20,308 nt of DNA from a virus, in the IMG/VR virus record IMGVR_UViG_3300029263_000563, positions 1 to 20,308 of that record. One strand, given 5' to 3'. Below, one piece after another: positions 2,385 to 20,308 of this stretch (positions are counted from its first letter, which is position 1; each line of letters opens with the position of its first letter). The notes beneath the pieces were generated by a model. The model saw nothing but the letters and a program-made list of their open reading frames with translations. It was not told where the DNA came from and made no database searches. The position numbers and the translations under genes were made by a program.

Positions 2385-4622
2385 ATGGCACAATCAGCAC
2401 GTAAATACGAAGAATTTGATCAAATGGATCAAGTCCCTATACCCGCAGGTGGTATTGCTACCTTTTTGACTGCGGAAACTGGCTCTTGGGCCGATGAAGA
2501 TGATGTCATGCCGCGACAAGGTATTGCTCAAGTTCATCAGATTGCTGACAAACTTGCCGAGTATGGTCGTAACGAAGACGAATACATGATCCACGCTGCG
2601 GAAGGCGAGACTGTTATTCCGATGGAAGTGTTTGATCAAAACCCCACCCTAAGAAACAAGCTATTTGCTGAAATGCGCATCATGGGCATTGAGCCAGAAC
2701 GTTATGTTGTGGGTAATGAGCTTAACTCTATCAACCCTGTTACGGGTCAGCCTGAGTTTTTCCTCAAGAAACTGTTTAAAGGTCTGAAGAAGATCGTAAA
2801 GATGGTTTTGCCGGTCATTGCGACAATAGGTCTAACCGTTTTAACCGGCGGCATTATTAATCCGGTAATGGCAGGCGCGATTGTTTCTGGAGCTTCAACG
2901 GCTATTCAAGGCGGAAGTTTAAAAGACTCTTTAAAATCCGCGGCAATTGGTGGTATAGCTGCTTTTGCCGGTGGCAGAATAGCGGGAAGAGCAGGTTGGG
3001 CGGCAAACAGCGCTAAACAAGCTATGACTAGCGCGGCCATAAACACTGCGCTTCATGGCGGAAGCACAAAAGACGTGTTGACCGGTGCGGCTTTGGCCGG
3101 TGTAGTGACCAAAGGTGTAGATTTTGTAGGGGCTAAAATTGCCGAGTCCCGAACTCCTCCACCGACAAATAGTGCTCAAGCAGGCGGTGTGACCGGAGGC
3201 GGTTTTCAACCAGCTACTCCAGAACAATTGGCCTTTCAAAAAACAGGTGTTACAGCGGCTACTCCCGAGGTTATATCAACGCTAAATCCTGATTTAACTA
3301 CATCATCTACTGGCACCGGAACCGACGCTACGGCACCCGTTACACTGTCCAACGTTTCGACAAGAGTAGTTGGAATGGACATGCCGTACAGTGTGGACAA
3401 TCCTATGGGTTATGGAGCGCCGACTGTCCAACAGTTTGATGGGTTTATGCCCGGAGATCAGTATTCCGCTCTGAATCAACAAATACCTCCGCCATTATCG
3501 GGTGCCCTTAGTCCTGATTACGATGTACTTGGAAACCTTCTTCCCGAAGTGGCATCCTCTCAATTACCCGCGGCCCTTAGTCCTGATTACGATGTACTTG
3601 GAAACCTTCTTCCCAAAGCAAGCGGCGAGTTTCAACCTGCTACTCCACAAGAGTTGGCCTTTCAAAATGATGCAAGCGGATTTCAACCTGCTACTCCACA
3701 AGAGTTGGCTTATATAGACCCTTTATTGGTAGATGCTACGGGCACTCCGGTTGCGGTAGGTCCTACGGGCACTCCGGTTGCGGTAGGTCCTACGGGCACT
3801 CCGGTTGCGGTAGGTCCTAACGCGAACCTTACTCAAATAAGCTCAGAAAATTTAAATACGTTAAGCGCCGATGCGGCTCCAAATGTTAAAGCCGATGCGA
3901 CTCTTCTAACGGCTCCAGAATTACCGGGCGCTATGGACAGCTTTAAAGACATATTTACCGGGTCGGGCATTGAAGGAGAAGGTTTTAGTAGTCGGCTAAA
4001 GGCGGTTCAAAAACTTTTCTTACCCGGCATTGATAAAGGTCAAGCAACAGATTATTTAAAAAACTTAAAAACAAATGATGCCAAGGCTTATGAAGCTTCG
4101 TTTGGAAATAAAACTATCTCGGATGCGTATAGACAAATGTCAAAAGACGCTTTCCAAGGTGTTGGCGGTTTTGCTAGGAAATACGGCCCTGCTATAGGTG
4201 CGGGCCTTGGCTTGATGGCCTTGGCACCTAAGCCCAAGCAGCCTGAGTTAATGGACATTAGCAACATGCCCTCGGGCCAAGATTTAATTGACGCTGATCC
4301 TAGCAAATACCGTATGTACAGCGACGATTACACATATAAAGCGCCAACTTATGCTGTTCAAAACGTGGCTGGAAGTGCTCCTTACTTTCAACCCACCGCT
4401 TTAGCGGCAGAAGGCGGCATAATGAACGTTTCCGACTTTCCTCGACGTAACGGGGATATAAACGGGCCGGGAACAGGAACATCTGACGATATTCCAGCAA
4501 TGCTTTCTGATGGTGAGTTTGTATTTACTGCGCAAGCGGTTCGCGGCGCGGGCAAAGGTAACCGAGAAGACGGAATGAAGAACATGTATCAAATGATGAG
4601 ACAATTTGAGGCGAAAGCATAA
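2385..4622 (+). CDS. Large repeat-containing virion-associated protein with hydrophobic segment
   Basis: The protein has 745 residues. Residues about 1-120 are acidic and soluble and contain EGETVIPMEVF. Residues 137-175 form a basic-then-hydrophobic stretch (LKKIVKMVLPVIATIGL...) followed by Ala/Gly-rich helices to about 250, typical of a membrane-inserting or tape-like segment. Residues about 270-480 are low-complexity and contain three families of direct repeats (FQPATP..LAF; SPDYDVLGNLLP; GTPVAVGPT). The C-terminus has GTSDDIPAMLSDGEFVF, a motif I associate with marine phage proteins. The ATG is preceded by a 40-base gap with only a weak AGGCG 12 bases upstream. The stop overlaps the next start as TAATG. 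Likely an internal or ejected virion protein; a tape-measure-like role is the alternative. No enzyme motif is visible. Confidence 0.6.
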   Translation: MAQSARKYEEFDQMDQVPIPAGGIATFLTAETGSWADEDDVMPRQGIAQVHQIADKLAEYGRNEDEYMIHAAEGETVIPMEVFDQNPTLRNKLFAEMRIMGIEPERYVVGNELNSINPVTGQPEFFLKKLFKGLKKIVKMVLPVIATIGLTVLTGGIINPVMAGAIVSGASTAIQGGSLKDSLKSAAIGGIAAFAGGRIAGRAGWAANSAKQAMTSAAINTALHGGSTKDVLTGAALAGVVTKGVDFVGAKIAESRTPPPTNSAQAGGVTGGGFQPATPEQLAFQKTGVTAATPEVISTLNPDLTTSSTGTGTDATAPVTLSNVSTRVVGMDMPYSVDNPMGYGAPTVQQFDGFMPGDQYSALNQQIPPPLSGALSPDYDVLGNLLPEVASSQLPAALSPDYDVLGNLLPKASGEFQPATPQELAFQNDASGFQPATPQELAYIDPLLVDATGTPVAVGPTGTPVAVGPTGTPVAVGPNANLTQISSENLNTLSADAAPNVKADATLLTAPELPGAMDSFKDIFTGSGIEGEGFSSRLKAVQKLFLPGIDKGQATDYLKNLKTNDAKAYEASFGNKTISDAYRQMSKDAFQGVGGFARKYGPAIGAGLGLMALAPKPKQPELMDISNMPSGQDLIDADPSKYRMYSDDYTYKAPTYAVQNVAGSAPYFQPTALAAEGGIMNVSDFPRRNGDINGPGTGTSDDIPAMLSDGEFVFTAQAVRGAGKGNREDGMKNMYQMMRQFEAKA
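3504..3614 (+). repeat. Two exact 42-bp direct repeats encoding ALSPDYDVLGNLLP
   Basis: Copies lie at 3504-3545 and 3573-3614 and are identical over 42 bases, separated by 27 bases encoding a variable linker. They are in frame with the 745-residue protein. Identity at the nucleotide level, including third codon positions, points to recent duplication or conversion rather than old divergence. Confidence 0.9.
3631..3709 (+). repeat. Two exact 28-bp direct repeats encoding FQPATPQELA, with a diverged third copy upstream
   Basis: Identical 28-base copies lie at 3631-3658 and 3682-3709. A diverged copy encoding FQPATPEQLAFQ lies about 3203-3239. The two close copies are spaced by 23 bases and stay in frame. 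They look like a linear peptide motif that has been multiplied within the low-complexity middle of the 745-residue protein. Confidence 0.88.
3737..3817 (+). repeat. Three exact tandem copies of a 27-bp unit encoding GTPVAVGPT-type nonapeptides
   Basis: Copies are 3737-3763, 3764-3790 and 3791-3817, identical base for base and head to tail. The unit is a multiple of three, so copy-number change would keep the reading frame. The encoded Gly/Pro/Val-rich peptide is likely an extended flexible linker. It is not a CRISPR array, because there are no spacers. Confidence 0.92.
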
Positions 4623-6169
4623 TGGTTGATGTCACACAAACAACTCAGTATGTACGCGAAGCGCCGCAGATTGAGGCGTACAAACTAGCTGCTTACCAAG
4701 ACGCTAAAAAACTTATTCAAGCAAGACAAGGGGTTGCACCCCCTACTCAAGCCGTTGCGGGTCTTACTAGCGAACAACAGGCCGCGGGCCAGCTTACTCG
4801 CGAAGGTATAGGCGGATATGAACCTTATTTACAAGGTGCTCTAGCCGCTAATCAAGCCGGTCAAGGCATGATTTCCAACACAGCAATGCCCATGATGGCA
4901 GAGTCCCTTGCACAGCAGCAGGCGGGTATTGCAGGTCTTGGGCAAGCGCGAGACTTAGCCGTAGGTCAGATGAACGCGCCTTATGCTTTAAGAGATCAAG
5001 CTTTGGCGGGGATGTCGCAAGCTAACTTAGACTTAGCCCGTGCTGGACAAGGTGCTGGCAACCAAGCTTTTGAGGCTCAACAAGGCATAGCTCAAGCCGG
5101 TTTAGGGGCCGCAAACCAAGCGTATGCGGCTCAACAAGGTATAACTGGAGCGGGGCAACTGGGTCAATCGGCAGCGCAGCAAGCTCAACAACAACTAGCC
5201 AGTAACATTGGTCAATTTGATCCTAGCGCCGCCAGTGGTGGTATTTCTGCGTTCATGGACCCGTACACACAAAACGTTATTGAAGCCGAGCAGGCAGAGA
5301 TTGCACGTCTTGGTGAACAACAAAAAGTTCAATCCCGTGGACAACAAGTACAAGCGGGCGCTTTTGGCGGCTCTAGAGGCGCTATTGCAGAAGCAGAAAT
5401 TAATAGAAACACCTTGGAGCAACAAGCGCGAACCGGGGCACAGCTTCGATCACAAGGCTACCAACAAGCAGCGCAACAGGCGCAGCAAGCCTTTGAGCAA
5501 TCTCAAGGCCGAGGCATACAAGCCGCAAGTCAATATGGGCAGTTAGGTTTAAATGCTGCACAGCAACAACAAGCGGGTGCTCAAGCAGGCGGGCAGCTAG
5601 GTTTATCTGCCGCGCAGCAACAGCAGGCGGGCGCACAAGCCGGTGGACAGTTAGGTCTTTCCACACAGCAAGCTTTGGCTCAAATGGCTGGTCAACGTGC
5701 CAATATTGCACAACAGGGCGGTCAAATGGGCTTGCAGTACGGCCAGTACGGTCAGCAAAACGTCAATCAACTCGCGGCCCTTGCACAACAGCAAGGCGCA
5801 ATGGGTCAAGGCATTGCTGGATTAGCCGGACAAAGTGGACAGTTAGCCGGACAGCTAAGTAATCTGGGCACACAACAAGCCCAGATAGGCGCACAAGCGC
5901 AACAGCAACGCGCCGCGGACACCCAAGGCTTAATGCAGTACGGCGGTGTTCAGCAGCAGCAAGCGCAGAACGTGCTTAACGCGAAGTACGCAGCAGAGCA
6001 AGGTGCATACAACCAGCCTCTGGCGGATGTGGCATTCCTTGGTGACATGACTAAGGCGTTACCTTCTTCACAAAGTGCCGTCTTCCAACAGCAGTCTCCT
6101 TCGCCCGGTCTTGCTCAAACAGCGGGTGGACTAGCCGTAGGTGCCGCAGGTTTAGCAAGAGCTTTTTAG
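4622..6169 (+). CDS. Gln/Ala-rich helical virion-associated protein with 18-residue repeats
   Basis: The protein has 515 residues, is extremely rich in Gln, Ala and Gly, and lacks Cys and long hydrophobic segments. Two blocks have an 18-residue period: residues about 141-176 (AGQGAGNQAFEAQQGIAQ and a near copy) and 306-341 plus a partial third copy (GQLGLNAAQQQQAGAQAG type). Eighteen residues equal five alpha-helical turns, so a regular helical rod or bundle is predicted. The middle (FMDPYTQNVIEAEQAEIARLGEQQ) resembles a region seen in many marine phage internal proteins. It is joined to the previous gene by a TAATG overlap and to the next by an 8-base gap. An ejection-protein role, like the small Ala/Gln-rich T7 gp14 class, is inferred from composition and position only. 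Confidence 0.62.
   Translation: MVDVTQTTQYVREAPQIEAYKLAAYQDAKKLIQARQGVAPPTQAVAGLTSEQQAAGQLTREGIGGYEPYLQGALAANQAGQGMISNTAMPMMAESLAQQQAGIAGLGQARDLAVGQMNAPYALRDQALAGMSQANLDLARAGQGAGNQAFEAQQGIAQAGLGAANQAYAAQQGITGAGQLGQSAAQQAQQQLASNIGQFDPSAASGGISAFMDPYTQNVIEAEQAEIARLGEQQKVQSRGQQVQAGAFGGSRGAIAEAEINRNTLEQQARTGAQLRSQGYQQAAQQAQQAFEQSQGRGIQAASQYGQLGLNAAQQQQAGAQAGGQLGLSAAQQQQAGAQAGGQLGLSTQQALAQMAGQRANIAQQGGQMGLQYGQYGQQNVNQLAALAQQQGAMGQGIAGLAGQSGQLAGQLSNLGTQQAQIGAQAQQQRAADTQGLMQYGGVQQQQAQNVLNAKYAAEQGAYNQPLADVAFLGDMTKALPSSQSAVFQQQSPSPGLAQTAGGLAVGAAGLARAF
5042..5149 (+). repeat. Block of two in-frame 54-bp repeats (18-residue helical unit)
   Basis: Copies span 5042-5095 and 5096-5149. They encode AGQGAGNQAFEAQQGIAQ and AGLGAANQAYAAQQGITG. 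The bases have diverged more than the residues, suggesting an older, selected duplication. Confidence 0.8.
5537..5680 (+). repeat. Block of 54-bp repeats (two full, one partial) encoding GQLGL.AAQQQQAGAQAG
   Basis: Full copies lie at 5537-5590 and 5591-5644; a partial third copy begins at 5645 (GQLGLSTQQALAQ). The period is 54 bases, the same as the upstream block at 5042-5149. Several synonymous changes between copies show the protein pattern is kept while the DNA drifts. Confidence 0.82.
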
Positions 6170-6177
6170 GATAAATT

Positions 6178-9100
6178 ATGAACGTAATGCAAAGACCTTT
6201 GTTTCGCGCTAATGGCGGCGAAGCTTTTCCTGATTTAAGTGGTGATGGAAAAGTTACTCAAAAAGATATTCTAATGGGCCGCGGCGTTATACCGCGGGGC
6301 ATGGAAGAAGGAGGCTTGGCCGCGTTAATGCCGGGACCAGAAGCCGCTATGATGCAAGAAGGGATGGCAGATCCGGCCATGATGGAAGGCGGGCCGTTAA
6401 ACCCTGCCGAAGCTGCGCTTGCCGGGGACATTTTAGGTGCCCGAGAAGAAGGCGAACAAATGGGCCTCGATTACTTAGCTCAAACAATGAGCGGCATAGA
6501 CAACGCCTCCAACACAGAAGAGCTAATTAACTCTATACGCGGTAAAGCGCAGCCTCTAGAAGCTAGGGTTCAAGAACTGGCTACGTTTGTTGGCGAAGAA
6601 GACGCTATGCGAACCCCTGAGTCTGTTCTAACAATGGTTCAGCCGGTCATTATGATGACTGAAGAAGGCGCAATAGACAGTGGTGTTGGTGAACTAATTC
6701 AAGGTGTGATGGGCGACACTGAAATGTCTCCAGAAATGGGTCAAGGCGTAGGCGCTTTGATGGCTCAAGGTCAGCCTGCACCAGAAATGGCTCCTGCTCC
6801 TATGGCTCAACCGGTACAGCAATTCTACCAAGGCGGTGCTGTAAAAAAGTTTGACATCGGCGGCGGGGCTAATTTAGGCGACCCTGTCTATGACCCCACG
6901 CTAGGAAGATCTTTTAGTGGCCCGTCTATCATGGGCGGTGTTAGGGAAGCAACAGCGGGTTTAGAAGACATTGCTTATTTAAACAATATAAACCCGGATC
7001 TTGCTAAGGCGTTCCAGAGCGAATCGTTAAGAGCAAGACCTCCGGTAACAATTGAAGAAGAAACCGCTAGAATTCAAAAGCTTATGGAAAAAGCTTACGA
7101 CACAGAGGGTCAACAAGCCTACTCTGATCGTGAAGCAGGATTAGATCTTGCCCGCGCAGGATTTGCTTTTGCCTCTGGTCGAGATCCAAAAACCGGCGAA
7201 AACATGGCGGGAAGAGGGTTTTTGGCTCAGGTAGGCTCTGTCGGCCAACAATACGCAGAGAGCGTAGGCGAACGTTTGGCTAGAGAGCGTAAAGGTGAGC
7301 AAGCTTTGCGGCTGGCGGCGGTACAACAAGGTATTGCAGCAGAAGGTCGCGATATTGCAATGCGGGAAGATGAAAAAAAATCTTCTAGGGAAGCACTTTT
7401 CAAAGACGCTGTAGAAGGTCGTAGATTAAGGCAGCAAGGTAAAATAACTGCGGCAGGTCTTCTAGCTGCCGGCCGACAGACTGTGGCTACAATAGGTGCC
7501 AACCTGTTTGATGCTGACAAAAATAGAGAATTTCAAGGCGAACAAACAGAACGAAAAGGGCAAATTAAAGAAAATTTAACAAAACTTAACGCGGACTTAA
7601 CTGAAGCACAAGCTCAATCAGATTTTACACGCGTTCAAAATTTAACTGAGCAACGTCACGTCGATTTATTAGAACTTACGGATATTAATTTTTATGACGG
7701 TCTGGCTACGCAAGCAGACCTATATACAAGACAATACAATAATAAAACCGCATATATTAATTTGGAAGGCGGCATACAGAAGAACTTGCAAACACAGCGC
7801 CTAGATTACACAAAGTTGTTAGAGGAGGCACGCCGAGAACTTCTTAAAGAGCAGGCGCGTTTAGATCGAGGTCTTACTACGGATGAAAAGGCTTTAGACA
7901 GAGCTTTTAGAAAAGGTCAGGCGGGTTTAGATCGAGATCTTACTACGGATGAAAAGGCTTTAGATAGAGCTTTTAGAAAAGGTCAGGCGGGTTTAGATCG
8001 AAATCTTACTACGGATGAAAAGGCTTTAGACAGAGATCTTCGTAGAGATTTGTCGGATGATGAAATTTCGTATAAAGAAGACGTGTTAGCGTTAAATGAA
8101 GAAAAGTTTGCATTAACGGAAGGTTTATCACCTTCTACTAGTAACAGTTTCTTGTTTAACATGACCGGCGGATTTGCTGGGCAAGCTGCTGAAGCAAGAC
8201 AAATCCGAGATGTAGAGCAAGATATTCAAAAACTTCGCGCCGAAGCATTAGCTCAAGGTATTGATCAAAATTTCTTGGCTAGAACCGATCAAGGCATCTC
8301 TAATTACATAGGTCTTGCAGACCAAGCTTTGCGTAAAGAACGTTTTGCATTTGATAAGAGTCAAACTTTGTTGGGAGCGTTACAAGCAGAGGGCGCTGGA
8401 CCACAATTTGGCACGACTGCCCAGCAAACTGCACTTCTAGGCAATAACGCGGCCATTCGGGCTTACGCTCAAGGCGCGGATGTCCCCGGATTTGATCTAT
8501 CGTTAAACAACATGTTTGGCACCGTAGTATTGGACAACGTAGGCAACCAAGTGCCTGCACGGGCATTGACTCCGGCACTGCGAGCCGCTATGGACAAACG
8601 GCAAAAAGCAGGCTTTGCCGTGCCTAGAATACAAGGGTTCGCGAACGGCGGTGAAGCAGACATGTCTCAAGGTTATTTAGAGCCTGTGACCGGATATCGG
8701 TTCCCTATGGATCAGCCGAAAACACAGCAAGAAATGCTTCCAGAAGTAATGCAACGCTCGTATCAGCCTCTTATTACTAAAGACATTGAAGACATTACAA
8801 AGGCTACTGGCACGCAAGAAGGTCTTTTTAACAAAGTTGGGATAGCCGGTAATACGGTGCTTAATGCAGTTTTTAACGAGGACGCAGGTTTTGCGGAAGA
8901 CACACGACAAGCAAAGAAAGCTGTTGAGACACTCGGCACTATAGCCACCACTACTTTGATGGCGGCTATTCCGGGAAAAGATAACGTAGAGCTACAGCGC
9001 ATGTTGAAGAGCTTGCAAGTGCCTGCGGACAGCTTTACTTTGCAAGATAACGAAGCGTTGGATTATTTTAGATTGGCTCGTAACACAATGAAACTGGGCA

Positions 9101-9285
9101 TCGAAAATCAGTTGGATTTGTTACAAAACGCCAATTTAACCAGAAAAGAGATGACCAAAGTAGAGACGGACTTGGCTCAAATGAACTCCATTCAAGCTGA
9201 ATACGACAATGTTATTAAAGCTTACGAAACTAAATTGCTGCCTTCGGAAGAAGTGTTTGCAGAACTGGATAAATTCTTTAAGTAA
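6178..9285 (+). CDS. Very large virion-associated protein with EF-hand-like loop and 22-residue repeats
   Basis: The protein has 1035 residues. The ATG at 6178 has AGGA at 6168-6171, six bases upstream. Residues 19-30 read DLSGDGKVTQKD, an EF-hand/dockerin-like calcium loop (acidic or polar at positions 1, 3, 5, 9, 12). Residues about 30-215 are acidic, Met/Pro/Gly-rich and helical. Residues about 540-660 are strongly charged and predicted coiled coil, including two and a half tandem copies of LDR.LTTDEKALDRAFRKGQAG. The C-terminal third is helical and soluble. Three F..GG motifs (F9, F216, F821) punctuate the chain. There is no signal peptide or enzyme motif. Its position between the Gln/Ala-rich protein and a 1289-residue protein suggests an internal/ejection protein comparable in size and place to T7 gp15; this is inference. 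Confidence 0.6.
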   Translation: MNVMQRPLFRANGGEAFPDLSGDGKVTQKDILMGRGVIPRGMEEGGLAALMPGPEAAMMQEGMADPAMMEGGPLNPAEAALAGDILGAREEGEQMGLDYLAQTMSGIDNASNTEELINSIRGKAQPLEARVQELATFVGEEDAMRTPESVLTMVQPVIMMTEEGAIDSGVGELIQGVMGDTEMSPEMGQGVGALMAQGQPAPEMAPAPMAQPVQQFYQGGAVKKFDIGGGANLGDPVYDPTLGRSFSGPSIMGGVREATAGLEDIAYLNNINPDLAKAFQSESLRARPPVTIEEETARIQKLMEKAYDTEGQQAYSDREAGLDLARAGFAFASGRDPKTGENMAGRGFLAQVGSVGQQYAESVGERLARERKGEQALRLAAVQQGIAAEGRDIAMREDEKKSSREALFKDAVEGRRLRQQGKITAAGLLAAGRQTVATIGANLFDADKNREFQGEQTERKGQIKENLTKLNADLTEAQAQSDFTRVQNLTEQRHVDLLELTDINFYDGLATQADLYTRQYNNKTAYINLEGGIQKNLQTQRLDYTKLLEEARRELLKEQARLDRGLTTDEKALDRAFRKGQAGLDRDLTTDEKALDRAFRKGQAGLDRNLTTDEKALDRDLRRDLSDDEISYKEDVLALNEEKFALTEGLSPSTSNSFLFNMTGGFAGQAAEARQIRDVEQDIQKLRAEALAQGIDQNFLARTDQGISNYIGLADQALRKERFAFDKSQTLLGALQAEGAGPQFGTTAQQTALLGNNAAIRAYAQGADVPGFDLSLNNMFGTVVLDNVGNQVPARALTPALRAAMDKRQKAGFAVPRIQGFANGGEADMSQGYLEPVTGYRFPMDQPKTQQEMLPEVMQRSYQPLITKDIEDITKATGTQEGLFNKVGIAGNTVLNAVFNEDAGFAEDTRQAKKAVETLGTIATTTLMAAIPGKDNVELQRMLKSLQVPADSFTLQDNEALDYFRLARNTMKLGIENQLDLLQNANLTRKEMTKVETDLAQMNSIQAEYDNVIKAYETKLLPSEEVFAELDKFFK
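7860..8037 (+). repeat. 66-bp tandem repeat, two full copies and a partial third
   Basis: Copies begin at 7860, 7926 and 7992 with a 66-base period; the third diverges after about 46 bases. Only a few substitutions separate them (for example the codon after LDR changes among Gly, Asp and Asn in the next residues). The unit encodes 22 residues and keeps the frame of the coiled-coil region. Confidence 0.92.
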
Positions 9286-13155: not shown

Positions 13156-14171
13156 TGGCTGAAGGCATCGAAAGTTTAGCTAATCCCGAAGACTTAGAGC
13201 TTGCGCGTAAAGCGGCAGAGCAAATGGGTGACGCGGAATATATGTATTCACAGCAACAATTGTTGCCCGAAAACATGCGAAGAGGCACCCCGCTGGGGTT
13301 CGTGTCAGACATGGGCTATGACGGGGATTACCCGCAAACTGGTCGAAATGCAGAAGTTATTTCTTACGGGATGCCCGGAAAAGAAGACCGAGAAGCGGGA
13401 ACAATGCCCTATTTAGGAAGTGGGGATGGGCTAATTCAAGGTTTGTACGTGCGAAAAAATCGAACACCGCAAGCTGTAAAAGACGAATTTGGCGACATGC
13501 CCGTTTTTAATTTAAATCCGGCAAAACCGGGGTCAGTTTTGTTGTTTAATTCCCCTGAGTACAAACAACTCTTAGAAAATCGCGACAATCCCGAGCGCAC
13601 GGGAAAAGAAAGCGTAGCTAACACTTTAAATCACGAACTGTTTCACCGCGGGGCCGTAGATGTTTTGCCTTTGCCGGATCTTACCGATTATGCTTTAAAT
13701 GAGTATAGAAAGTCCTCCATTCCGGGAATGGATTTTATTAAAGAGGACCGTACTGGTGAACGCGCAGCAATAGTGTTTAGAAAATTAAAAGACGTTGACG
13801 GACAACACCGGTATTTAGATGCGTTAGATAAACTAAACATAGCAAAAGGCGATATAACGCTTTTAACCGAAAGAGATCAAATGCGCGTCGAAGATTTAAT
13901 CGCCGCAGGAACAGTAGGGCAGCAGTTTTTTAATACTCAAGCGCAAGAGGATTACATGGTTAGAACTCCCAGCCCCGCCTTGGAAACTCCAACAGAATAC
14001 GAGCCGGGAATTGCAGGGTTAATGTCCCGTATAGGTGACCTTGGCGAAGCTCGAAAAGCAGAGGTTAGAAGCTTTAACCGATATAGAACAGCAAGACAGG
14101 AAGGAGGGGCCTATGACACTAGTCGTTTTGGCAACCGTGGAGAAAATCAAGTAGAATTTGATTCACCCTAA
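13155..14171 (+). CDS. HExxH-motif protein, putative zinc metallopeptidase closing the virion module
   Basis: The protein has 338 residues. NHELFHRG places an HExxH zinc-binding signature at residues 160-164 (H160, E161, H164) in a predicted helix preceded by SVANTL. A downstream Glu (E202 in TGERA) could be the third ligand of a gluzincin-type site, but this is a guess. Residues 30-150 contain strands and Gly/Asp turns (GYDGDYPQTGRNAE, LYVRKN, VFNLNPAKPGSVLLFNS) compatible with a small peptidase fold. The C-terminus (about 290-338) is Arg/Gly-rich and disordered-looking. Start overlaps the previous stop (TAATG); the TAA at 14169-14171 overlaps the stop of the opposite-strand helicase. Possible roles are virion protein maturation or cell-wall/envelope cleavage at entry. 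Motif is certain; activity is not. Confidence 0.55.
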   Translation: MAEGIESLANPEDLELARKAAEQMGDAEYMYSQQQLLPENMRRGTPLGFVSDMGYDGDYPQTGRNAEVISYGMPGKEDREAGTMPYLGSGDGLIQGLYVRKNRTPQAVKDEFGDMPVFNLNPAKPGSVLLFNSPEYKQLLENRDNPERTGKESVANTLNHELFHRGAVDVLPLPDLTDYALNEYRKSSIPGMDFIKEDRTGERAAIVFRKLKDVDGQHRYLDALDKLNIAKGDITLLTERDQMRVEDLIAAGTVGQQFFNTQAQEDYMVRTPSPALETPTEYEPGIAGLMSRIGDLGEARKAEVRSFNRYRTARQEGGAYDTSRFGNRGENQVEFDSP

Positions 14172-15616
14172 ATAAGCCACTTCTTAGCTGACTCGCCCAA
14201 GACTTCTTGAGCTATGTCTATCTTGTCCTTCAATGCCTGTATTATCTTCTCATCCACCGTGTCTGGGCTAATTAGATCCACATACAGAACATGCTGCGTT
14301 TGCCCTATCCTATGCGCTCGGTCCTCGGACTGTAGCCGTATCTCCAAGTCGTACTGATTGTTGTAGTAGATCATGTTGGTAGCCGCCGTAAGCGTCAGTC
14401 CGTAGCCCCCTGTGCGCGGGTTAGCCACAAAGAACCGAACGTCACTGTCCGGATCTTGGAAATCCGCCACGATCTGGTCCCGAGCATCAGTAGGCGTGGC
14501 CCCATAGAAAGTGCGCACGGCGCTCGGCCCATAGGCTTCGCTTAGTTCTTTTTCTATCTGCTCTATGTCATACACCCAGCTTGCCCAGATGATTACTTTG
14601 CCGTTCATTTCAGAGACTACGTTTAGCATCTCGTTCATTCGATTACTGGGTATGGCTTGTATCTCACCATCGTCAGTCTTCAAGTGCCCACAGCAGATCT
14701 CCTGTAGTCGCATGATCTGTGTCAAAACGCTCTGTGTTGTTGCCAGTTCGCCTTTTTCAAGCATAGCCAGTGCCATGTCCTGCATCTGTTTATACGCAGA
14801 AGCTTGCTCTTTGGTCAGCGGTACGCTGCGCTGGGTGTAGATCTTTTCGGGTAGATCCAAGCAGTCTTCTTTTAAAACTCGGCTAGAGAACTCATCCAGA
14901 ATCCCATTTAACTCGCCAAGGTTGCGGTATCCAGTTATCTGTTGAAAGCTACGGTTACCAAACTTACGTGTCTGCATGATCGCGTAGCGGCCTTGGAAAG
15001 CATAGTAGCTGGGCTGTTGAAGCATTCTTGTCCCTAAGAACGCGCATTGTGAGTACAAGTCCATTGGGTTCTTGGTAATAGGACTACCGGTCAAGATCCG
15101 GCGGTACTTGGCTAACTCACCTAGCGCCATGATGCTCTTGGTACGCTTTGCGGTACGGTTCTTTATAGCCGTGGACTCATCTACTGCAACAAGGCTGTTC
15201 GGATTTAGTCGTAGAAACTTGGCCGCAACGTCCGTACCCTTCTTAGTAGAGAACGACTCGACGTTCATTACCAAGATGCGCAAGTGCTTGGTGTCTTTCT
15301 TGTCGGCTACTTCGTTAAGCTGCTTTTTAAAAGCTTGGGTAAAACTTGGTTGCCACTGCACAACCTTTACTGGGATATCGTCCCCGAGGTGCTGTGGAAT
15401 CTCCTTGTGTACCCAATTGCCGTACACGCCTTTCGGTGCAATGACCAAGGCAGACGTTATCTCACCTTCGCAGAACAGCTTCGCCATTGTGTCGATGGTT
15501 ACTTTGGTTTTGCCTGTGCCCATCTCTAAAAACAACGCATGAGCGTGCTTATCCCAGCTTGCATCGAACACTTCTCTTTGATGATCGTATGGCTGCGTTT
15601 TAAAATTAAATTGCAT
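14168..15616 (-). CDS. SNF2-family (superfamily 2) DEAD/DEAH-type helicase
   Basis: The protein has 482 residues, typical for compact phage SNF2-like helicases. Motifs in order are PYDHQ near residue 10 (Q-like), Walker A EMGTGKTK with K36, motif Ia ALVIAPKGV, motif II VAVDESTAIKN with D146-E147, motif III LTGSP at 175-179, motif V GGYGLTLTAA, and motif VI QSEDRAHRIGQ near 429-439. The last is the hallmark of the SNF2/Rad54 group, which uses ATP to translocate on double-stranded DNA. In a phage it may remodel forks or recombination intermediates. AGGA (15622-15625 on this strand) lies five bases before the ATG. It is the only minus-strand gene, convergent with the virion module and divergent from the replication module. 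Family is secure; exact role is not. Confidence 0.92.
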   Translation of the reverse strand: MQFNFKTQPYDHQREVFDASWDKHAHALFLEMGTGKTKVTIDTMAKLFCEGEITSALVIAPKGVYGNWVHKEIPQHLGDDIPVKVVQWQPSFTQAFKKQLNEVADKKDTKHLRILVMNVESFSTKKGTDVAAKFLRLNPNSLVAVDESTAIKNRTAKRTKSIMALGELAKYRRILTGSPITKNPMDLYSQCAFLGTRMLQQPSYYAFQGRYAIMQTRKFGNRSFQQITGYRNLGELNGILDEFSSRVLKEDCLDLPEKIYTQRSVPLTKEQASAYKQMQDMALAMLEKGELATTQSVLTQIMRLQEICCGHLKTDDGEIQAIPSNRMNEMLNVVSEMNGKVIIWASWVYDIEQIEKELSEAYGPSAVRTFYGATPTDARDQIVADFQDPDSDVRFFVANPRTGGYGLTLTAATNMIYYNNQYDLEIRLQSEDRAHRIGQTQHVLYVDLISPDTVDEKIIQALKDKIDIAQEVLGESAKKWLI

Positions 15617-15632
15617 TATGGTCCTAAATCGT

Positions 15633-15662
15633 TTGACACATGCGATAGTATGGGATTATTGT
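15633..15662 (+). promoter_or_regulatory. Candidate sigma70-type promoter for the replication module
   Basis: The -35 hexamer TTGACA is a perfect match; the -10 TATTGT matches TATAAT at four of six positions with an 18-base spacer. It would start transcription near 15669, about 45 bases before the first replication gene. Confidence 0.5.
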
Positions 15663-15671
15663 TGCTTTGGG

Positions 15672-15689
15672 AAGTGGCTAACGCCGCTT
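15672..15689 (+). other. Short stem-loop in the leader of the replication operon
   Basis: AAGTGGC (15672-15678) pairs with GCCGCTT (15683-15689) through one G-U wobble, with a TAAC loop. There is no T-tract on either strand, so it is not an intrinsic terminator. It could be a repressor site or an RNA element in the leader. Confidence 0.45.
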
Positions 15690-15714
15690 AAAACTAGAAA
15701 AACGAGAAAAAACT

Positions 15715-16284
15715 ATGAGTGATTTACTTTCTCAGATGGCGGGGGACAGCAACGCCGCTTTGAACCTACCAGATGATAGAGGATTAGCTTCCGTGCAAGC
15801 TATCGCAGACCGCATCGTGTCCTACGAAAAGCGGGTAACCAGTTTAGAGTACGACCTAAAAGAAGCAAAGAGAAAACTTCTCAAGCTCACCGACGAAGAC
15901 TTGCCCAGCAAGATGCAAGAGTTGGGGCTTTCTGATTTTCGTTTGACTGACGGCAGTCGTATTGAAATCAAACAGACCTACGGCGCACGCATCAGTGAAG
16001 ATAATCGGGCAGACGCTTTTGCATGGCTACGCGCCAAAGGCGAAGGCGATCTAATCAAGAACACTATCTCCGTGCGGTTTGGCAAGAAGGAAGATAACGA
16101 GGCAATGGCTTTATTGGACGATCTTAGGAAAAGAAATATGGAGCCAGAGCAGAAAGAAGAAGTACATGCCAGCACGTTGAAAGCATGGGTAAAAGATCGT
16201 ACTGAGCAAGGTCTGGAGCTAGACATGGATTTGTTTGGGGTATGGATCGGAAACAGAGCAACAATTAAGAGAGCGCAAAAATGA
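15715..16284 (+). CDS. Conserved phage replication-module protein with coiled coil, function unknown
   Basis: This 189-residue protein is the first gene of the rightward replication operon. Residues about 28-62 form a predicted coiled coil (ADRIVSYEKRVTSLEYDLKE...), followed by SKMQELGL.DFRLTDGSRIEIK, a short beta region, and a charged helical C-terminal half ending in a basic tail (RATIKRAQK). The layout of an N-terminal coil followed by a small beta domain recalls Gam-like DNA-end protectors, but I see no diagnostic match and do not assign that name. The gene overlaps the ssDNA-binding candidate by ATGA, implying coupled synthesis and perhaps a shared complex. A nucleic acid-related role is inferred from context. 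The leader before ATG is A-rich with a weak GAG. Confidence 0.6.
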   Translation: MSDLLSQMAGDSNAALNLPDDRGLASVQAIADRIVSYEKRVTSLEYDLKEAKRKLLKLTDEDLPSKMQELGLSDFRLTDGSRIEIKQTYGARISEDNRADAFAWLRAKGEGDLIKNTISVRFGKKEDNEAMALLDDLRKRNMEPEQKEEVHASTLKAWVKDRTEQGLELDMDLFGVWIGNRATIKRAQK

Positions 16285-17072
16285 GCGATAAAGAAGTAGC
16301 GGATAAGAAAAACACGGCAGTAGCCGTAGCAGGGCCAGCAATGTTTGAAGCAGATGCTGGGTTGGGTATGGACATGGGAACCGACGATTTAGCGTTGCCA
16401 TTTCTAAAGATTGTATCTTCAGAACTATTGAATCAAGACGAAACCATTGATGCAAAGCTGGGCGATATGATCAACTCCGTCACCAAAGAAGTGTACAGCG
16501 GTAAAAAGCCGATGCGCGTTATACCGTGCCATTACAAGCGCGAGTTTTTAATGTGGGCACCTCGGGGTTCCGGTAACGGTGCGCCGATGAAGATCTTTGG
16601 ACCGGAAGACGAACGTCCCGAAACCAAGCGCGATGAAGGCGACAACCGTGAGTACGTTGTAGGCGGTAACGGCGAATACATCGACGAAACACACCAACAC
16701 TACGTGTTGATTCTTCAAGAAGACGGTACTGTCTCTAATGCATTGATTTCAATGAAGTCCACGCAGTTGAAGAAGTCACGTCAGTGGAACTCTATGATTG
16801 CTACGCGCAGTATGTTGAACGCAGAAGGTATGCCATTCACACCGCCACGGTTCTCGCATGTGTACAACTTGAGCACCAACAAGGAAGAAAACTCCAAGGG
16901 TGTTTGGCATGGTTGGAAGATTGAGTTGAACGGTGTCATCGAAGACGCTATGCAATATCAAGCGGCTAAGGCGTTTCACACCGCAATTAGTGCTGGAGAT
17001 GTAAAGGTGAAGCATGAGCAAAATGCAGCCCGTGCAAAATCTGAAGAAAACTCGGATGCCGATCCTTTTTAA
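16281..17072 (+). CDS. Probable ssDNA-binding protein with acidic C-terminal tail
   Basis: The protein has 263 residues. The first 25 or so are low complexity; a conserved-looking core follows with LPFLKIVSSE, GDMINSVTKEVYSGKKPMRVIPCHY, YVLILQEDGTVSNALISMKSTQLKKSRQWNSMI and GVWHGWKIEL, a beta-rich pattern with aromatic and basic residues fitting an OB-like ssDNA binder. The C-terminus (EENSDADPF) is acidic and ends in Phe, as in bacterial SSB and T7 gp2.5, where such tails dock polymerase and helicase-primase. AAGAGAG at 16267-16273 precedes the ATG. The gene sits directly before the primase, the expected place for a phage SSB. The binding activity is inferred; an annealing-protein role is the main alternative. 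Confidence 0.6.
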   Translation: MSDKEVADKKNTAVAVAGPAMFEADAGLGMDMGTDDLALPFLKIVSSELLNQDETIDAKLGDMINSVTKEVYSGKKPMRVIPCHYKREFLMWAPRGSGNGAPMKIFGPEDERPETKRDEGDNREYVVGGNGEYIDETHQHYVLILQEDGTVSNALISMKSTQLKKSRQWNSMIATRSMLNAEGMPFTPPRFSHVYNLSTNKEENSKGVWHGWKIELNGVIEDAMQYQAAKAFHTAISAGDVKVKHEQNAARAKSEENSDADPF

Positions 17073-17088
17073 AAGCCACCTCGGCGTT

Positions 17089-17144
17089 CCGTAGCGTCGA
17101 TAGGCGGTAGATCTTGGACCCCTTCGATCTGCCGCCGTCTACGG
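17089..17144 (+). other. Strong two-part stem-loop between ssDNA-binding and primase genes
   Basis: An inner stem pairs GGCGGTAGATC (17103-17113) with GATCTGCCGCC (17126-17136), 11 pairs with one G-U wobble and a 12-base loop. An outer stem pairs CCGTAG (17089-17094) with CTACGG (17139-17144), separated by an 8/2 internal loop. No T-run follows, and a ribosome site (AAGGA, 17148-17152) starts four bases later. It therefore looks like a structured RNA leader, processing site or DNA element rather than a terminator. Confidence 0.7.
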
Positions 17145-17156
17145 ATCAAGGAATTT

Positions 17157-18689
17157 ATGAATATAGCGAAGTTTTCAGAAATATTTGATGGTCTGCGTCA
17201 GGCTTACGGCACTTTTAAAATTGAGTCCAAATCTAGCAGTGGCAAGACCCAAGGCAAGGCCACCGTAGTTCGCGGTGAGCGGAACACGGAACATTGGGAA
17301 AGTCATTTATCGGGTCAGCAATCTATCGGGATAATCCCGATCAACGAAGACAATGCGTGTCGATGGGGGTGTATCGACATTGATCAATACAACTTTGATC
17401 ACAAGGCCCTGATAGACAAGATACAGGCGGCAAAGCTGCCGCTAGTAGTGTGTAGAAGCAAATCTGGGGGCGCTCACGTCTTCTTATTTACGGATGCATT
17501 TATACCTGCCAAGGACATGCAAAACGTCCTGACACAACTGTGCGCGGGTCTAGGCTACGGTGGGAGCGAGATCTTCCCCAAGCAAATCAGTTTGAACCTA
17601 GAGCGTGGAGATGTAGGCAACTTTTTAAACATGCCGTACTTCGATCATGAGAACGGGTTGCGGTATGCCTTCAATCTAGATGGCAGTGCAGCTACGTTTG
17701 ATGAGTTCTTGGCCTTAGTAGAAGAGAACGTCCAGACATATGAGCAGTCGTTGTCTTTGGTCATTGAACAAGACCCAACGCTTCCAATTCAAGACGGCCC
17801 CCCGTGTTTACAGACCCTATGCAAAGAGGGTATTGGTGAAGGTGCGCGGAACAATGGCCTGTTCAACATTGGGGTCTATCTTAGAAAGGCGTACCCCGAT
17901 ACGTGGGAGACAGAGATCCTCACGCACAACATGAACTTTATCCACCCTCCACTGCCCTTGGGCGAGGTAAACACCGTAGCAAAGCAAATTGAGCGCAAGG
18001 ACTACGCATATAAGTGTAAAGACGCGCCGATCAATGCCTACTGCAACCCCGAGCTATGCAAGACACGTAAGTTTGGGATCGATGCCGCTGTGTCAGGCGT
18101 GCAGATTGCTAACCTCCGCAAATACAACAGTGTGCCACCGGTATGGTTCTTGGACGTTCAAGGTCAGCCTTTAGAACTGGGCACCAACGACCTGATGATT
18201 CAGTCCGACTTTCAACGTGCTTGCGTAGAGCAGCTAAACTTTTTCCCCCGTACCGTACAGAAGGCTCAGTGGGAGCAGCGGATCAATGCCCTGCTCAACG
18301 AGATGTCGGATACGGAAGGCCACGTCATAGAGGTTAGCCTAGATGTAAGTGTGAACGGGCAGTTCCAAGACCACTTAGAAGAATTCTGTACCGGACACCA
18401 AGCCGCCGACGATAAAGAACAGATCTTGCTGAAGCGTCCGTGGACTGATGAGTCCGCAGACTTTACATACTTTAGGTTGAAGGACTTAGAAGCGCACTTG
18501 GCTAAAGCTAATTTTAAAACTTACAAGACCCACCAGATTGCGCAGAGATTGCGCGATATAAACGGCGAGGCTACACAGCTTCGCATCCAAGGAAAGGTGA
18601 TAAGGCTGTGGAAAATCCCTGCACACGAGCAGTTAAACAGTCGGATTACTACGCCGAAGTTTTCGGCAGACGAAGAGATACCATTTTAG
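17157..18689 (+). CDS. Archaeo-eukaryotic-type DNA primase (AEP/PrimPol-like) with four-Cys module
   Basis: The protein has 510 residues. The catalytic part shows the AEP DxD motif in CIDID (D74, D76) and the SxH motif in SGGAH (S103, H107), with GSEIFPKQ and GNFLNMPYFD (D163 a candidate third acidic residue) following. Residues about 215-305 form a second module: PPCLQTLCKEGIGEGARNN with C217 (also C222), LF..GVYLRKAYPD, then C287, C296 and C301, a spacing reminiscent of the PriL-type iron-sulfur or a zinc site. The C-terminal third is helical and ends in the acidic ADEEIPF. Such enzymes make primers at phage forks. The ATG has AAGGA four bases upstream. The stop is followed by a nine-base gap to the next gene. 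AEP identity is strong; metal type is open. Confidence 0.85.
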   Translation: MNIAKFSEIFDGLRQAYGTFKIESKSSSGKTQGKATVVRGERNTEHWESHLSGQQSIGIIPINEDNACRWGCIDIDQYNFDHKALIDKIQAAKLPLVVCRSKSGGAHVFLFTDAFIPAKDMQNVLTQLCAGLGYGGSEIFPKQISLNLERGDVGNFLNMPYFDHENGLRYAFNLDGSAATFDEFLALVEENVQTYEQSLSLVIEQDPTLPIQDGPPCLQTLCKEGIGEGARNNGLFNIGVYLRKAYPDTWETEILTHNMNFIHPPLPLGEVNTVAKQIERKDYAYKCKDAPINAYCNPELCKTRKFGIDAAVSGVQIANLRKYNSVPPVWFLDVQGQPLELGTNDLMIQSDFQRACVEQLNFFPRTVQKAQWEQRINALLNEMSDTEGHVIEVSLDVSVNGQFQDHLEEFCTGHQAADDKEQILLKRPWTDESADFTYFRLKDLEAHLAKANFKTYKTHQIAQRLRDINGEATQLRIQGKVIRLWKIPAHEQLNSRITTPKFSADEEIPF

Positions 18690-18698
18690 GAGAATAAA

Positions 18699-18938
18699 AT
18701 GTCAGAACTAATTTTTGTAGATGGCCTACGGGTATTCCCACCAAGGGATAAAGCACCAGACTTTATAAAGGGCGCAATGCTTATCAATCGGGACGAAATG
18801 ATTGCATGGCTACAAGCGCAGCCCGATGAAGAAATACGCCTAGACATCAAAGCGTCTAAGCCACCTAAAACTTCGTGGTATTGCTCGGTGGACAACTGGA
18901 AGCCCGAGAACCCCAAAAGCAAAGGGCCAGCCTTTTGA
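18699..18938 (+). CDS. Small conserved phage protein (79 aa), function unknown
   Basis: A clear ribosome site, AGGAG at 18688-18692, lies six bases before the ATG and overlaps the primase stop. The protein starts with a short strand (ELIFVDGLRVFPP), then KAPDFIKGAMLINRDEMIAWLQAQPDEE, then a strand-rich basic segment (RLDIKASKPPKTSWYCSVDNWKP). I have seen this pattern (API-F-KG.L-I---EL--WL) in small proteins beside phage replication genes, but no function is known to me. No membrane segment or signal is present. Its neighbours suggest a replication accessory, perhaps an adaptor for the primase or helicase. The stop TGA overlaps the proposed TTG start of the next gene. Confidence 0.7.
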   Translation: MSELIFVDGLRVFPPRDKAPDFIKGAMLINRDEMIAWLQAQPDEEIRLDIKASKPPKTSWYCSVDNWKPENPKSKGPAF

Positions 18939-19189
18939 AGCTATTAGATGGTTTTAACGATGCCATTCTAGGTGTGGGTGAAAAAGCCGGTGAAGAAAAC
19001 CCTTTTATGATTTATGACTACCGAAAATGCGTAGAAATTTTGATGACGGTCAACAACTGGAGTGAAGACGATGCCGTTGAATGGATGGATTACAACGTCA
19101 TATGTGCTTACTTTGGCGAAGATACTCCGGTGTTCTTGTATCCGGCGGAGCTTAATGTAATTGAGGGTTCGGACGGGGAAATCCACTAA
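18935..19189 (+). CDS. Small conserved phage protein (84 aa), probable TTG start
   Basis: The acidic protein reads MKLLDGFNDAILGVGEKAGEENP, then MIYDYRKCVEILM, WSEDDAVEWMDYNVICAYFGEDTPVFLYP. This matches a widespread family of roughly 80-residue phage proteins that I recognise by the LLDGFD.A..GV opening and the DYDKCI..LM..... motif; its function is unknown to me. A start at 18875 would give 104 residues, but would overlap the previous gene by 64 bases and add an atypical Gln/Arg-rich lead. The TTG at 18935, overlapping the preceding TGA, gives the family-length protein, so I choose it. A TAATG overlap couples it to the helicase. Confidence 0.65.
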   Translation: MKLLDGFNDAILGVGEKAGEENPFMIYDYRKCVEILMTVNNWSEDDAVEWMDYNVICAYFGEDTPVFLYPAELNVIEGSDGEIH

Positions 19190-20308
19190 TGCAACGTATC
19201 TTTGGACCGCCCGGAACGGGAAAGACCACCACATTGTTGGACTTGGTGGAGAAAGAACTGGCAAAGGGCACGCATCCAAGCAAGATTGCGTTCTTTGCCT
19301 TTACACGCAAAGCGGCAAACGAGGCTAAAGAGCGTGCTGCCGCAAGGTTTGGGCTAGATCCCAAGCAGGACCTACCGTTTTTTCGCACTATGCACAGCCT
19401 CGCGTTCAACCTGACGGGGCTGAAGTCCGAGCAGCTTATGACTGCGCAGCACTACCGTGAGGTAGAGCGCCGCATAGGCATAGAACTAATCGAAGGTAGC
19501 CTGTCGCGCCTCGATCAAGTAGAAGAAGACCTAAGCAACAGCTTAAAGAAAGAATCTCCACTGCTGCGTTTGATTACCCTAGCGCGGCTAAAGCAGCAGC
19601 CCTTGCAGTCCGAGTACAACAGCAGCGGACTAAACAACCCGTGGCTAGAAGTGGATTACGCTGCGCGGGCCTTGGTTGAGTACAAGAAGACGCACGGTCT
19701 ATTTGATTACACCGACATGCTAGAGCTTTTTGCAGACTCCGCATCATCGGTATGCCCCGAGTTTAAACTGGCAATGCTAGACGAAGCGCAAGATCTGTCC
19801 CCCCTACAATGGAAGATTGCTCACGCCATCGACAACAAGTCTGACCGGATGTACTGCGCAGGGGACGATGATCAAGCTATCTACAAATGGTCGGGTGCAG
19901 ACGTTGAACACTTCATTAATTTAGACGGCGGCAGCGAGGTGCTTGAGCAGAGCTACCGCGTGCCTTCCAACATCCACACAATCGCAGAGCGTATCTGCAA
20001 CAGGATCAAGCGTAGGTTTCCTAAGAAGTACCTGCCACGCAAGGCCGAGGGTATCTTTCAGCAGCTATCCGACTTTAGCGGATTAGACATGGACGAAGGG
20101 ACATGGCTTTTCTTAGCGCAGGCCAACTACTTCCTGTCACCCGTACAGAACTTTTTAAAATCCCAAGGTTATTTCTACGAGCATGGTGGTGGTGTGCGCA
20201 GTGTGCGCGAGAAGATCCGCATGGCCCTCGGCGCTTGGGCCTGCATACAACAAGGTTTGCCGCTGTCGCTAGACGCAGCCAAAGCCATGTATTCGTTTAT
20301 GAACGGCA
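19189..20308 (+). CDS. UvrD/Rep-like superfamily 1 helicase (partial, runs off window end)
   Basis: The frame is open from ATG at 19189 to the last base, giving at least 373 residues. Motifs in order are Walker A GPPGTGKTT (K12), Ia FFAFTRKAANEAKERA, TMHSLAF, Walker B MLDEAQDLSPLQW (D198-E199), motif III GDDDQAIYKWSGA (about residues 225-237) and motif IV LEQSYRVP. This is the standard UvrD/Rep/PcrA arrangement; the later motifs lie beyond the window. The enzyme should move 3' to 5' on ssDNA using ATP and probably drives fork unwinding or repair beside the primase. It is shorter between motifs than UvrD itself, with only a small 1B-like insertion. The start overlaps the TAA of the small upstream gene, and GGGGA at about 19174-19178 is a possible ribosome site. 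Confidence 0.9.
   Translation, partial: MQRIFGPPGTGKTTTLLDLVEKELAKGTHPSKIAFFAFTRKAANEAKERAAARFGLDPKQDLPFFRTMHSLAFNLTGLKSEQLMTAQHYREVERRIGIELIEGSLSRLDQVEEDLSNSLKKESPLLRLITLARLKQQPLQSEYNSSGLNNPWLEVDYAARALVEYKKTHGLFDYTDMLELFADSASSVCPEFKLAMLDEAQDLSPLQWKIAHAIDNKSDRMYCAGDDDQAIYKWSGADVEHFINLDGGSEVLEQSYRVPSNIHTIAERICNRIKRRFPKKYLPRKAEGIFQQLSDFSGLDMDEGTWLFLAQANYFLSPVQNFLKSQGYFYEHGGGVRSVREKIRMALGAWACIQQGLPLSLDAAKAMYSFMNG

Follow-up and report, generated by a model that had tools for sequence, protein, structure and literature searches.

Co-evolving C-terminal tips on an AEP-type primase and a gp34-like protein of phages, and a possible shared docking pocket

The IMG/VR virus record IMGVR_UViG_3300029263_000563, analysed here over its entire 20,308 bases and referred to as the window, carries a replication module at 14168-20308. 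This module encodes a SNF2-type helicase, a gp33-like protein, a gp34-like protein, an AEP-type primase, a 79-amino-acid open reading frame (ORF) and a UvrD-type helicase. The gp34-like protein (hereafter gp34), which is a candidate binder of single-stranded DNA (ssDNA), and the primase both end in short tips that recall the C-terminal tip of the bacterial single-stranded DNA-binding protein (SSB). The original prediction had described these two tips, and examination of the ORFs and their translations finds them exactly so, gp34 ending in KSEENSDADPF and the primase in KFSADEEIPF. The features concerned, in window positions, are:

16281..17072, plus strand: gp34-like protein of the Pam3_Gp34 family, 263 amino acids, candidate ssDNA binder (PF23977, E 1.8e-55; PHROG 2402)
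17019..17069, plus strand: C-terminal tail of gp34, residues 247-263, predicted disordered; the last nine residues, EENSDADPF, lie at 17043-17069, and the terminal residue is conserved
17157..18689, plus strand: AEP-type primase (AEP-TOTE and PriCT_1 domains), 510 amino acids (PF22548, E 1.7e-15; PF08708, E 1.5e-4; PHROG 21866, primase, E 2.9e-100)
18621..18686, plus strand: C-terminal tail of the primase, residues 489-510, predicted disordered; the last eight residues, SADEEIPF, lie at 18663-18686, and the terminal residue is conserved

The product of 17157-18689 is an AEP-type primase by its profile matches, scoring 57.7 bits with PF22548 (cut-off 27) and 21.7 bits with PF08708 (cut-off 21.1), and its priming activity is predicted. 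The catalytic IDID and SxH-type motifs are present, with D74, D76 and H107 invariant in 38 diverse members, and Foldseek matches its fold to the CRISPR-associated Prim-Pol (CAPP) 7nqe (E 1.5e-10) and to RepB' (E 2e-5). The gp34 of the window is a plain member of the Pam3_Gp34 family, which comprises more than 500 phage records, many of them from Pseudomonas phages; its PB1-like, Wifcevirus, Myosmarvirus and Carpasinavirus members also end in acidic residues followed by Phe. Neither Pfam nor PHROGs records a function for this family (PHROG 2402 is annotated as function not known), and no earlier mention of its tip was located in the literature. Profile searches with gp34 returned PF23977 alone and no SSB profile, a sequence search of the PDB gave no match, and a search with the window protein confirmed no relatives in bacterial and archaeal genomes. 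Its AlphaFold2 model has a core with a predicted local distance difference test score (pLDDT) above 90 across most of residues 41-237. The best Foldseek matches of this model in the PDB are weak (E 0.015), with RPA, PrgE and SsbA among the top ones, and in BFVD it matches one model named single-stranded DNA-binding protein (E 1.6e-4). The fold search points weakly to OB-fold ssDNA binders, and the earlier label of ssDNA-binding candidate stays at the level of a candidate; gp34 likely binds ssDNA.

Conservation of the tips was followed in 366 loci (cited below by their L labels), taken from isolate phages and IMG/VR contigs, and in a set of 134 lineages with less than 90% identity to each other. 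The last residue is Phe, Tyr or Trp in 240 of 353 complete primases and in 241 of 328 complete gp34 proteins, and 339 of the 353 primases end in a large hydrophobic residue. Among 898 other dereplicated ORFs from the same loci, only 7.3% have an aromatic end and 0.3% end in -PF. By lineage, 95% of primases and 98% of gp34 proteins have a hydrophobic last residue, and positional entropy is lowest at this position (1.5 bits in the primase, 1.4 bits in gp34); upstream positions mostly show 2.7-3.7 bits, with the exception of position -2 of gp34 (1.4 bits). Among close relatives of the window, at a primase identity of about 67% or more, all the complete primases listed end in IPF or VPF, and the preceding linker varies. 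The last residues are therefore more conserved than the linker, the comparison that the original prediction had proposed. Moreover, TTT and TTC are both used for the Phe and all four codons for the Pro, and this synonymous variation implies that the constraint acts on the protein. Both tails lie outside the fold in the AlphaFold2 models, have no secondary structure and are modelled with low confidence, the pLDDT falling below 50 at residues 247-259 of gp34, and to 57 in the last two blocks of the primase from 91 just upstream. Burial of the tail, which would have spoken against a docking role, is thus not what the models suggest, and the resemblance of the tails to docking peptides is supported by their predicted disorder and by a terminal residue that is more conserved than the linker.

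The acidic residues, which the original prediction took as part of the conserved tip, do not share this conservation. What is conserved is the last residue, with a Pro in front of it; only about half of the lineages retain the acidic run, their last eight residues having a net charge of -2 or below. Near-canonical SSB-like tips (DEEIPF, DDIPF, DDDLPF) occur in the clade of the window and in several others; 19% of primase tips carry a net positive charge, and the basic ones extend across whole clades (e.g., QKKRSPF, KKGSF), such as that of DSL-LC04, whose primases end in KKGSPF or QKKRSPF.

In this large group of marine and freshwater phages, the tips of the primase and gp34 evolve as a pair. 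Where the terminal Phe is lost, the loss is not patternless, a possibility that would have undermined the tip as a functional element; rather, both proteins change jointly. The Pelagibacter phage HTVC027P and about 80 contigs end in -KENIV on the primase and -KQDIV on gp34, and in HTVC027P exactly two of the 87 annotated coding sequences end in -IV, namely these two. Kokobel2 combines -KAEF on the primase with -HSEF on gp34; the corresponding pairs are -ERSF and -ATSF in the L064 clade, -PPFV and -IPFA in L083, -KDIM and -EDIM in L357, NLL and TII in L297, and PNY and GNY in L289, and in L184 both proteins end in -DIPF. In the clade formed by L077-L080, L159, L160 and L163 both tips are lost: the primase extends beyond the aromatic residue (PSFAK, PPFVK, KWQKK), and gp34 terminates before its tail. 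Models of dependent and independent evolution of the Pagel type were compared on a maximum-likelihood tree of 134 primases, from which the tail columns had been excluded. For an aromatic last residue the dependent model is favoured with a likelihood ratio (LR) of 22.6, which none of 21 simulations under independence reaches (maximum 6.3), and for Pro at position -2 the LR is 22.2 (0 of 23 simulations, maximum 8.6). When the two longest branches are dropped, these values become 21.4 and 17.8, respectively.

A natural experiment on this coupling is provided by the many relatives in which the stop codon of the primase overlaps the start of the next gene. When the overlap is of the ATGA type, the last primase codon has to end in A, so that Phe, Tyr and Trp are impossible. 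This arrangement is found in 11 lineages from six clades, upstream of long ORFs (162-580 amino acids); examples are:

L170:3493-3496, ATGA overlap
L083:16211-16214, ATGA overlap
L078:5262, ATGA overlap
L297:5491, ATGA overlap

All 11 primases have a non-aromatic end, as the code requires. Likewise, gp34 has a non-aromatic end in 10 of the 11 (from five of the six clades), vs 3 of the 123 other lineages (Fisher 8e-12, uncorrected for relatedness); on the tree, this association has an LR of 24.5, and none of 50 simulations reaches it (maximum 9.7). The gp34 genes of these lineages are not bound by the ATGA rule, their stop codons being TAA, TAG or, in L181, TGA after G, and their last codons (ATT, TTA, ATC, ATG, GTA, GTC, GCA and others) follow no common rule at the DNA level. 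The overlap type is therefore a predictor of the primase tip class and, in trans, of the gp34 tip class. The direction may be either, since the overlap may force a tip switch or an earlier switch may permit the overlap; whichever holds, the tip of one protein is linked to that of the other. The clades L290-L299, L310 and L318, which combine an aliphatic primase end with a -PF end of gp34, suggest that the primase tends to switch before gp34; L310 and L318 adjoin L297-L301, where gp34 has switched.

The joint change of the two tips is best explained by a single pocket that both must fit. The model proposed here is that the primase and gp34 bear matched C-terminal docking peptides, each a flexible and often acidic tail with a large hydrophobic last residue and a free carboxylate, which would dock in one pocket of a shared, most likely phage-encoded partner; we give this reading a probability of roughly 60%. 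The original prediction had seen the tip as a docking device, and in this it is borne out by tails that look like docking peptides and by a joint evolution that fits a shared site. In known SSB C-terminal (SSB-Ct) sites, the terminal side chain enters a hydrophobic pocket, a basic lip holds the carboxylate and the acidic residues face a basic ridge (PMC10164576), and the strict last residue and loose charge of the phage tips match this anatomy. The putative pocket would likewise enclose the last side chain and grip the carboxylate. The primase could then use the same socket as gp34 to reach gp34-coated ssDNA or the replisome, and the two proteins would compete for this socket, hand it over or share it. 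A narrower form of the model, in which they compete for one socket and the ATGA overlap removes the primase aromatic residue and resets the specificity, with gp34 following in trans, is put forward tentatively, at somewhat less than an even chance.

Candidates for the pocket are the gp34 core, a family-A DNA polymerase, the SNF2 helicase, gp33 and the UvrD helicase. Besides gp34, those encoded in the window are:

14168..15616, minus strand: SNF2-type helicase, candidate receptor (PF00176, E 4.7e-26); common to PB1-type phages
15715..16284, plus strand: gp33-like protein (DUF7307), near gp34, candidate receptor (PF23984, E 4.5e-29); it adjoins gp34 in PB1-type phages too
19189..20307, plus strand: UvrD-type helicase, candidate receptor, extending beyond the window (PF00580, E 3.3e-32)

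The family-A polymerase is encoded nearby in relatives; the complete relatives DSL-LC04, 023Pt_psg01, HTVC023P, HTVC027P and PMBT28 have the same module, or a rearranged one, plus this polymerase. The precedent of phage T7, described below, points by analogy to it as a possible holder of the pocket. PB1-type phages share SNF2, gp33 and gp34; in the stretches read, they gave no match to the AEP primase, the family-A polymerase or UvrD, and their gp34 keeps an acidic -EEF, -EQF, -DNF or -ENF tip. This gene content, together with the kept tip, favours the gp34 core, gp33 or SNF2, unless the receptors differ between the two phage groups.

Several observations weigh against a shared pocket or do not point to a receptor. 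No receptor was found among the candidate proteins: no columns that switch with tip class beyond the null were detected in the gp34 core, gp33, UvrD, SNF2 or PolA, and the charge of no candidate tracks the tips after correction for relatedness, the nominal p of 0.039 for gp34 tip vs SNF2 charge being one among 15 tests and not meaningful. The clade that has lost both tips is missing no receptor gene, as SNF2, gp33, gp34, primase, UvrD and PolA are all kept. The net charge of the two tips does not co-evolve once relatedness is corrected for (contrast r 0.11, p 0.21), and the independent-pairs test finds three to five pairs on supported branches, none of them contrary, which are too few for significance. 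Dependence tests of the Pagel type can be swayed by a handful of events, but in this case the signal comes from at least five clades. There are also mismatched lineages. Nanhaivirus and HTVC023P retain a gp34 tip next to a primase that has none: in the Nanhaivirus loci L168, L169 and L179, gp34 ends in DEEIPF or DDEVPF and the primase in an acidic, non-aromatic sequence (EDDGEA, SDGEA, ENGQD), and in HTVC023P gp34 ends in -VPF and the primase in -FRT. The aliphatic primase end and -PF gp34 of L290-L299, L310 and L318 are a further mismatch, PMBT28 shows the reverse one (primase KSEF, gp34 ATEM), and L302 has the ATGA overlap, yet its gp34 ends in -VPY.

Among the alternatives, the one that survives best is a variant of the proposed model and places the pocket in the OB-like core of gp34 itself, whose own tail would occlude the ssDNA groove or link neighbouring molecules, the primase tail substituting for it. 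PB1-type phages, in which the gp34 tip is kept and gp33 and SNF2 were the sole further module proteins found near gp34, are consistent with this arrangement, and it has precedents elsewhere. The tail of the Enc34 SSB enters the groove of a neighbour (PMC5686142), the tail and ssDNA compete for the binding surface of T7 gp2.5 according to the title of a work cited in the same paper, and the acidic C-terminal motifs of human PrimPol bind the OB cleft of RPA70N (PMC5457501). As the gp34 core has no column whose switches follow the tip class more closely than the null, and the OB fold of gp34 is itself drawn from weak fold matches, docking on the gp34 core is considered unlikely, though with an appreciable chance of being right.

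It could also be argued that the two tips serve two separate partners, and that their likeness and joint changes are a coincidence of shared ancestry. The exceptions in both directions (Nanhaivirus, HTVC023P, L290-L299, PMBT28) would be expected if this were so, and the independent-pairs test alone is not significant. Such a coincidence is nevertheless improbable in view of LR values of 22-24 on the tree, which no simulation reaches, of matches as specific as -ENIV with -QDIV and -KDIM with -EDIM, and of gp34 being non-aromatic in five of the six ATGA clades.

Slightly less credit still is due to mimicry of the host, in which both tips would copy that of the host SSB and dock on its partners, such as PriA, RecQ, exonuclease I or RecO; the original prediction had named docking on host proteins as one possibility for the primase. 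The near-canonical tips described above fit this proposal, and a C-terminal Phe behind acidic residues is exactly what SSB-Ct pockets take up (PMC10164576). However, HTVC027P (-IV on both proteins) and HTVC023P (gp34 -VPF, primase -FRT) infect the same Pelagibacter host strain, gp34 of the Escherichia coli phage Mansfield ends in DAEEF vs the host SSB tip DDDIPF, and basic, -EF, -IV and -IM tips exist. The matched switching, in turn, calls for a receptor that varies along with the phage. As a general rule, then, docking on the host partners of SSB is not supported and is considered improbable.

A by-product of gene packing, in which the GAGGAG of the primase tail would serve the next gene as its ribosome site and the TTT at the end would be part of a TTTTGA overlap (which can hold a TTG start), the peptide having no role, is rejected as highly improbable: although the primase stop can overlap the next start in most lineages and many tails hold a Shine-Dalgarno-like motif, 96% of primase ends are aromatic, with acidity no lower, in the 25 lineages that have neither overlap nor motif (the window included), gp34 bears the same tip mostly without any overlap, and the Phe and Pro codons vary synonymously.

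The matched tips have their closest parallel in phage T7, whose SSB gp2.5 ends in -EDGDF and whose primase-helicase gp4 ends in -NDTDF; in 27 T7-like contigs and P-SSP7, the tip pair is nearly always -DF, -DY or -EF. The T7 pair contradicts the original prediction that such a tip was undescribed for phage primases. In both systems, a phage carries matched tips of one class, on disordered tails, at the ends of its SSB or SSB-like protein and of its priming protein; as in the window, the T7 tails are acidic and have a terminal aromatic residue. The T7 gp4 primase is of the TOPRIM type and is fused to a ring helicase, and gp2.5 belongs to a different SSB family from gp34; the phages described here have an AEP-type primase without a helicase and an uncharacterised gp34, and their terminal residue switches between aromatic and aliphatic in both proteins jointly. 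In T7, the tails of gp4 attach to basic patches on gp5, the family-A polymerase, and removal of these tails lowers processivity (PMC12593628); the gp2.5 tail has been implicated in contacts with the polymerase and the primase-helicase (PMC5686142). What is new here is a putative T7-like wiring with an unrelated primase and partner, spread over very many phages, with tips that evolve as a pair. If the shared socket is real, replisome wiring by matched tips in the style of T7 arose again from unrelated parts. The co-evolving tips also tie the gp34 family, which has no assigned function, to DNA priming, and their correlated switches offer a route to the receptor, as in lineages such as HTVC027P its pocket should have shifted from fitting an aromatic residue to fitting an aliphatic one.

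The bacterial SSB-Ct resembles the phage tips in its terminal Phe after Pro and acidic residues, and in its disordered tail. It differs in that here the primase bears the tip too, about half of the lineages are not strongly acidic, and some tips end in Val, Ile, Leu, Met or Glu-Phe. Human PrimPol is likewise an AEP primase with acidic C-terminal motifs in a flexible tail that dock on an OB-fold cleft, that of RPA (PMC5457501). Its motifs bind as short helices, though, with no dependence on a free C-terminus described, and RPA is not described as having a matching tip.

Other proteins of these phages have ends of a similar kind. The 79-amino-acid ORF 3' of the primase is confined to the sub-clade of the window:

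18699..18938, plus strand: 79-amino-acid ORF, ending in KSKGPAF

All five distinct tails of this ORF among relatives end in Phe (GPAF or QADF), and it could be a third tip carrier in this sub-clade. A 61-amino-acid protein of DSL-LC04 (L081:26186-26371) ends in EFEPAPF, the sole -PF end among 82 proteins besides gp34 and the primase. Salmonella phage PMBT28 encodes a separate 113-amino-acid 'DNA-binding protein' (L165:21108-21449), which has no Pfam match and ends in FDDDIPF like the host SSB. The UvrD-type helicases 3' of the primase (e.g., L002:3344-4895) have a fixed C-terminus, mostly an aromatic residue followed by any residue and Leu or Ile (SYVL, SYAL, YGYQI, NYYRI), which may be either a tip or the final strand of the folded domain. 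Searches of the window for RNA families and tRNAs found none. Outside the replication module, the window encodes three large virion-type proteins (2385-4622, 4622-6169 and 6178-9285) with the internal peptide repeats PTGTPVAVG, QQQAGAQAGGQLGLS and FRKGQAGLDRxLTTDEKALDR.

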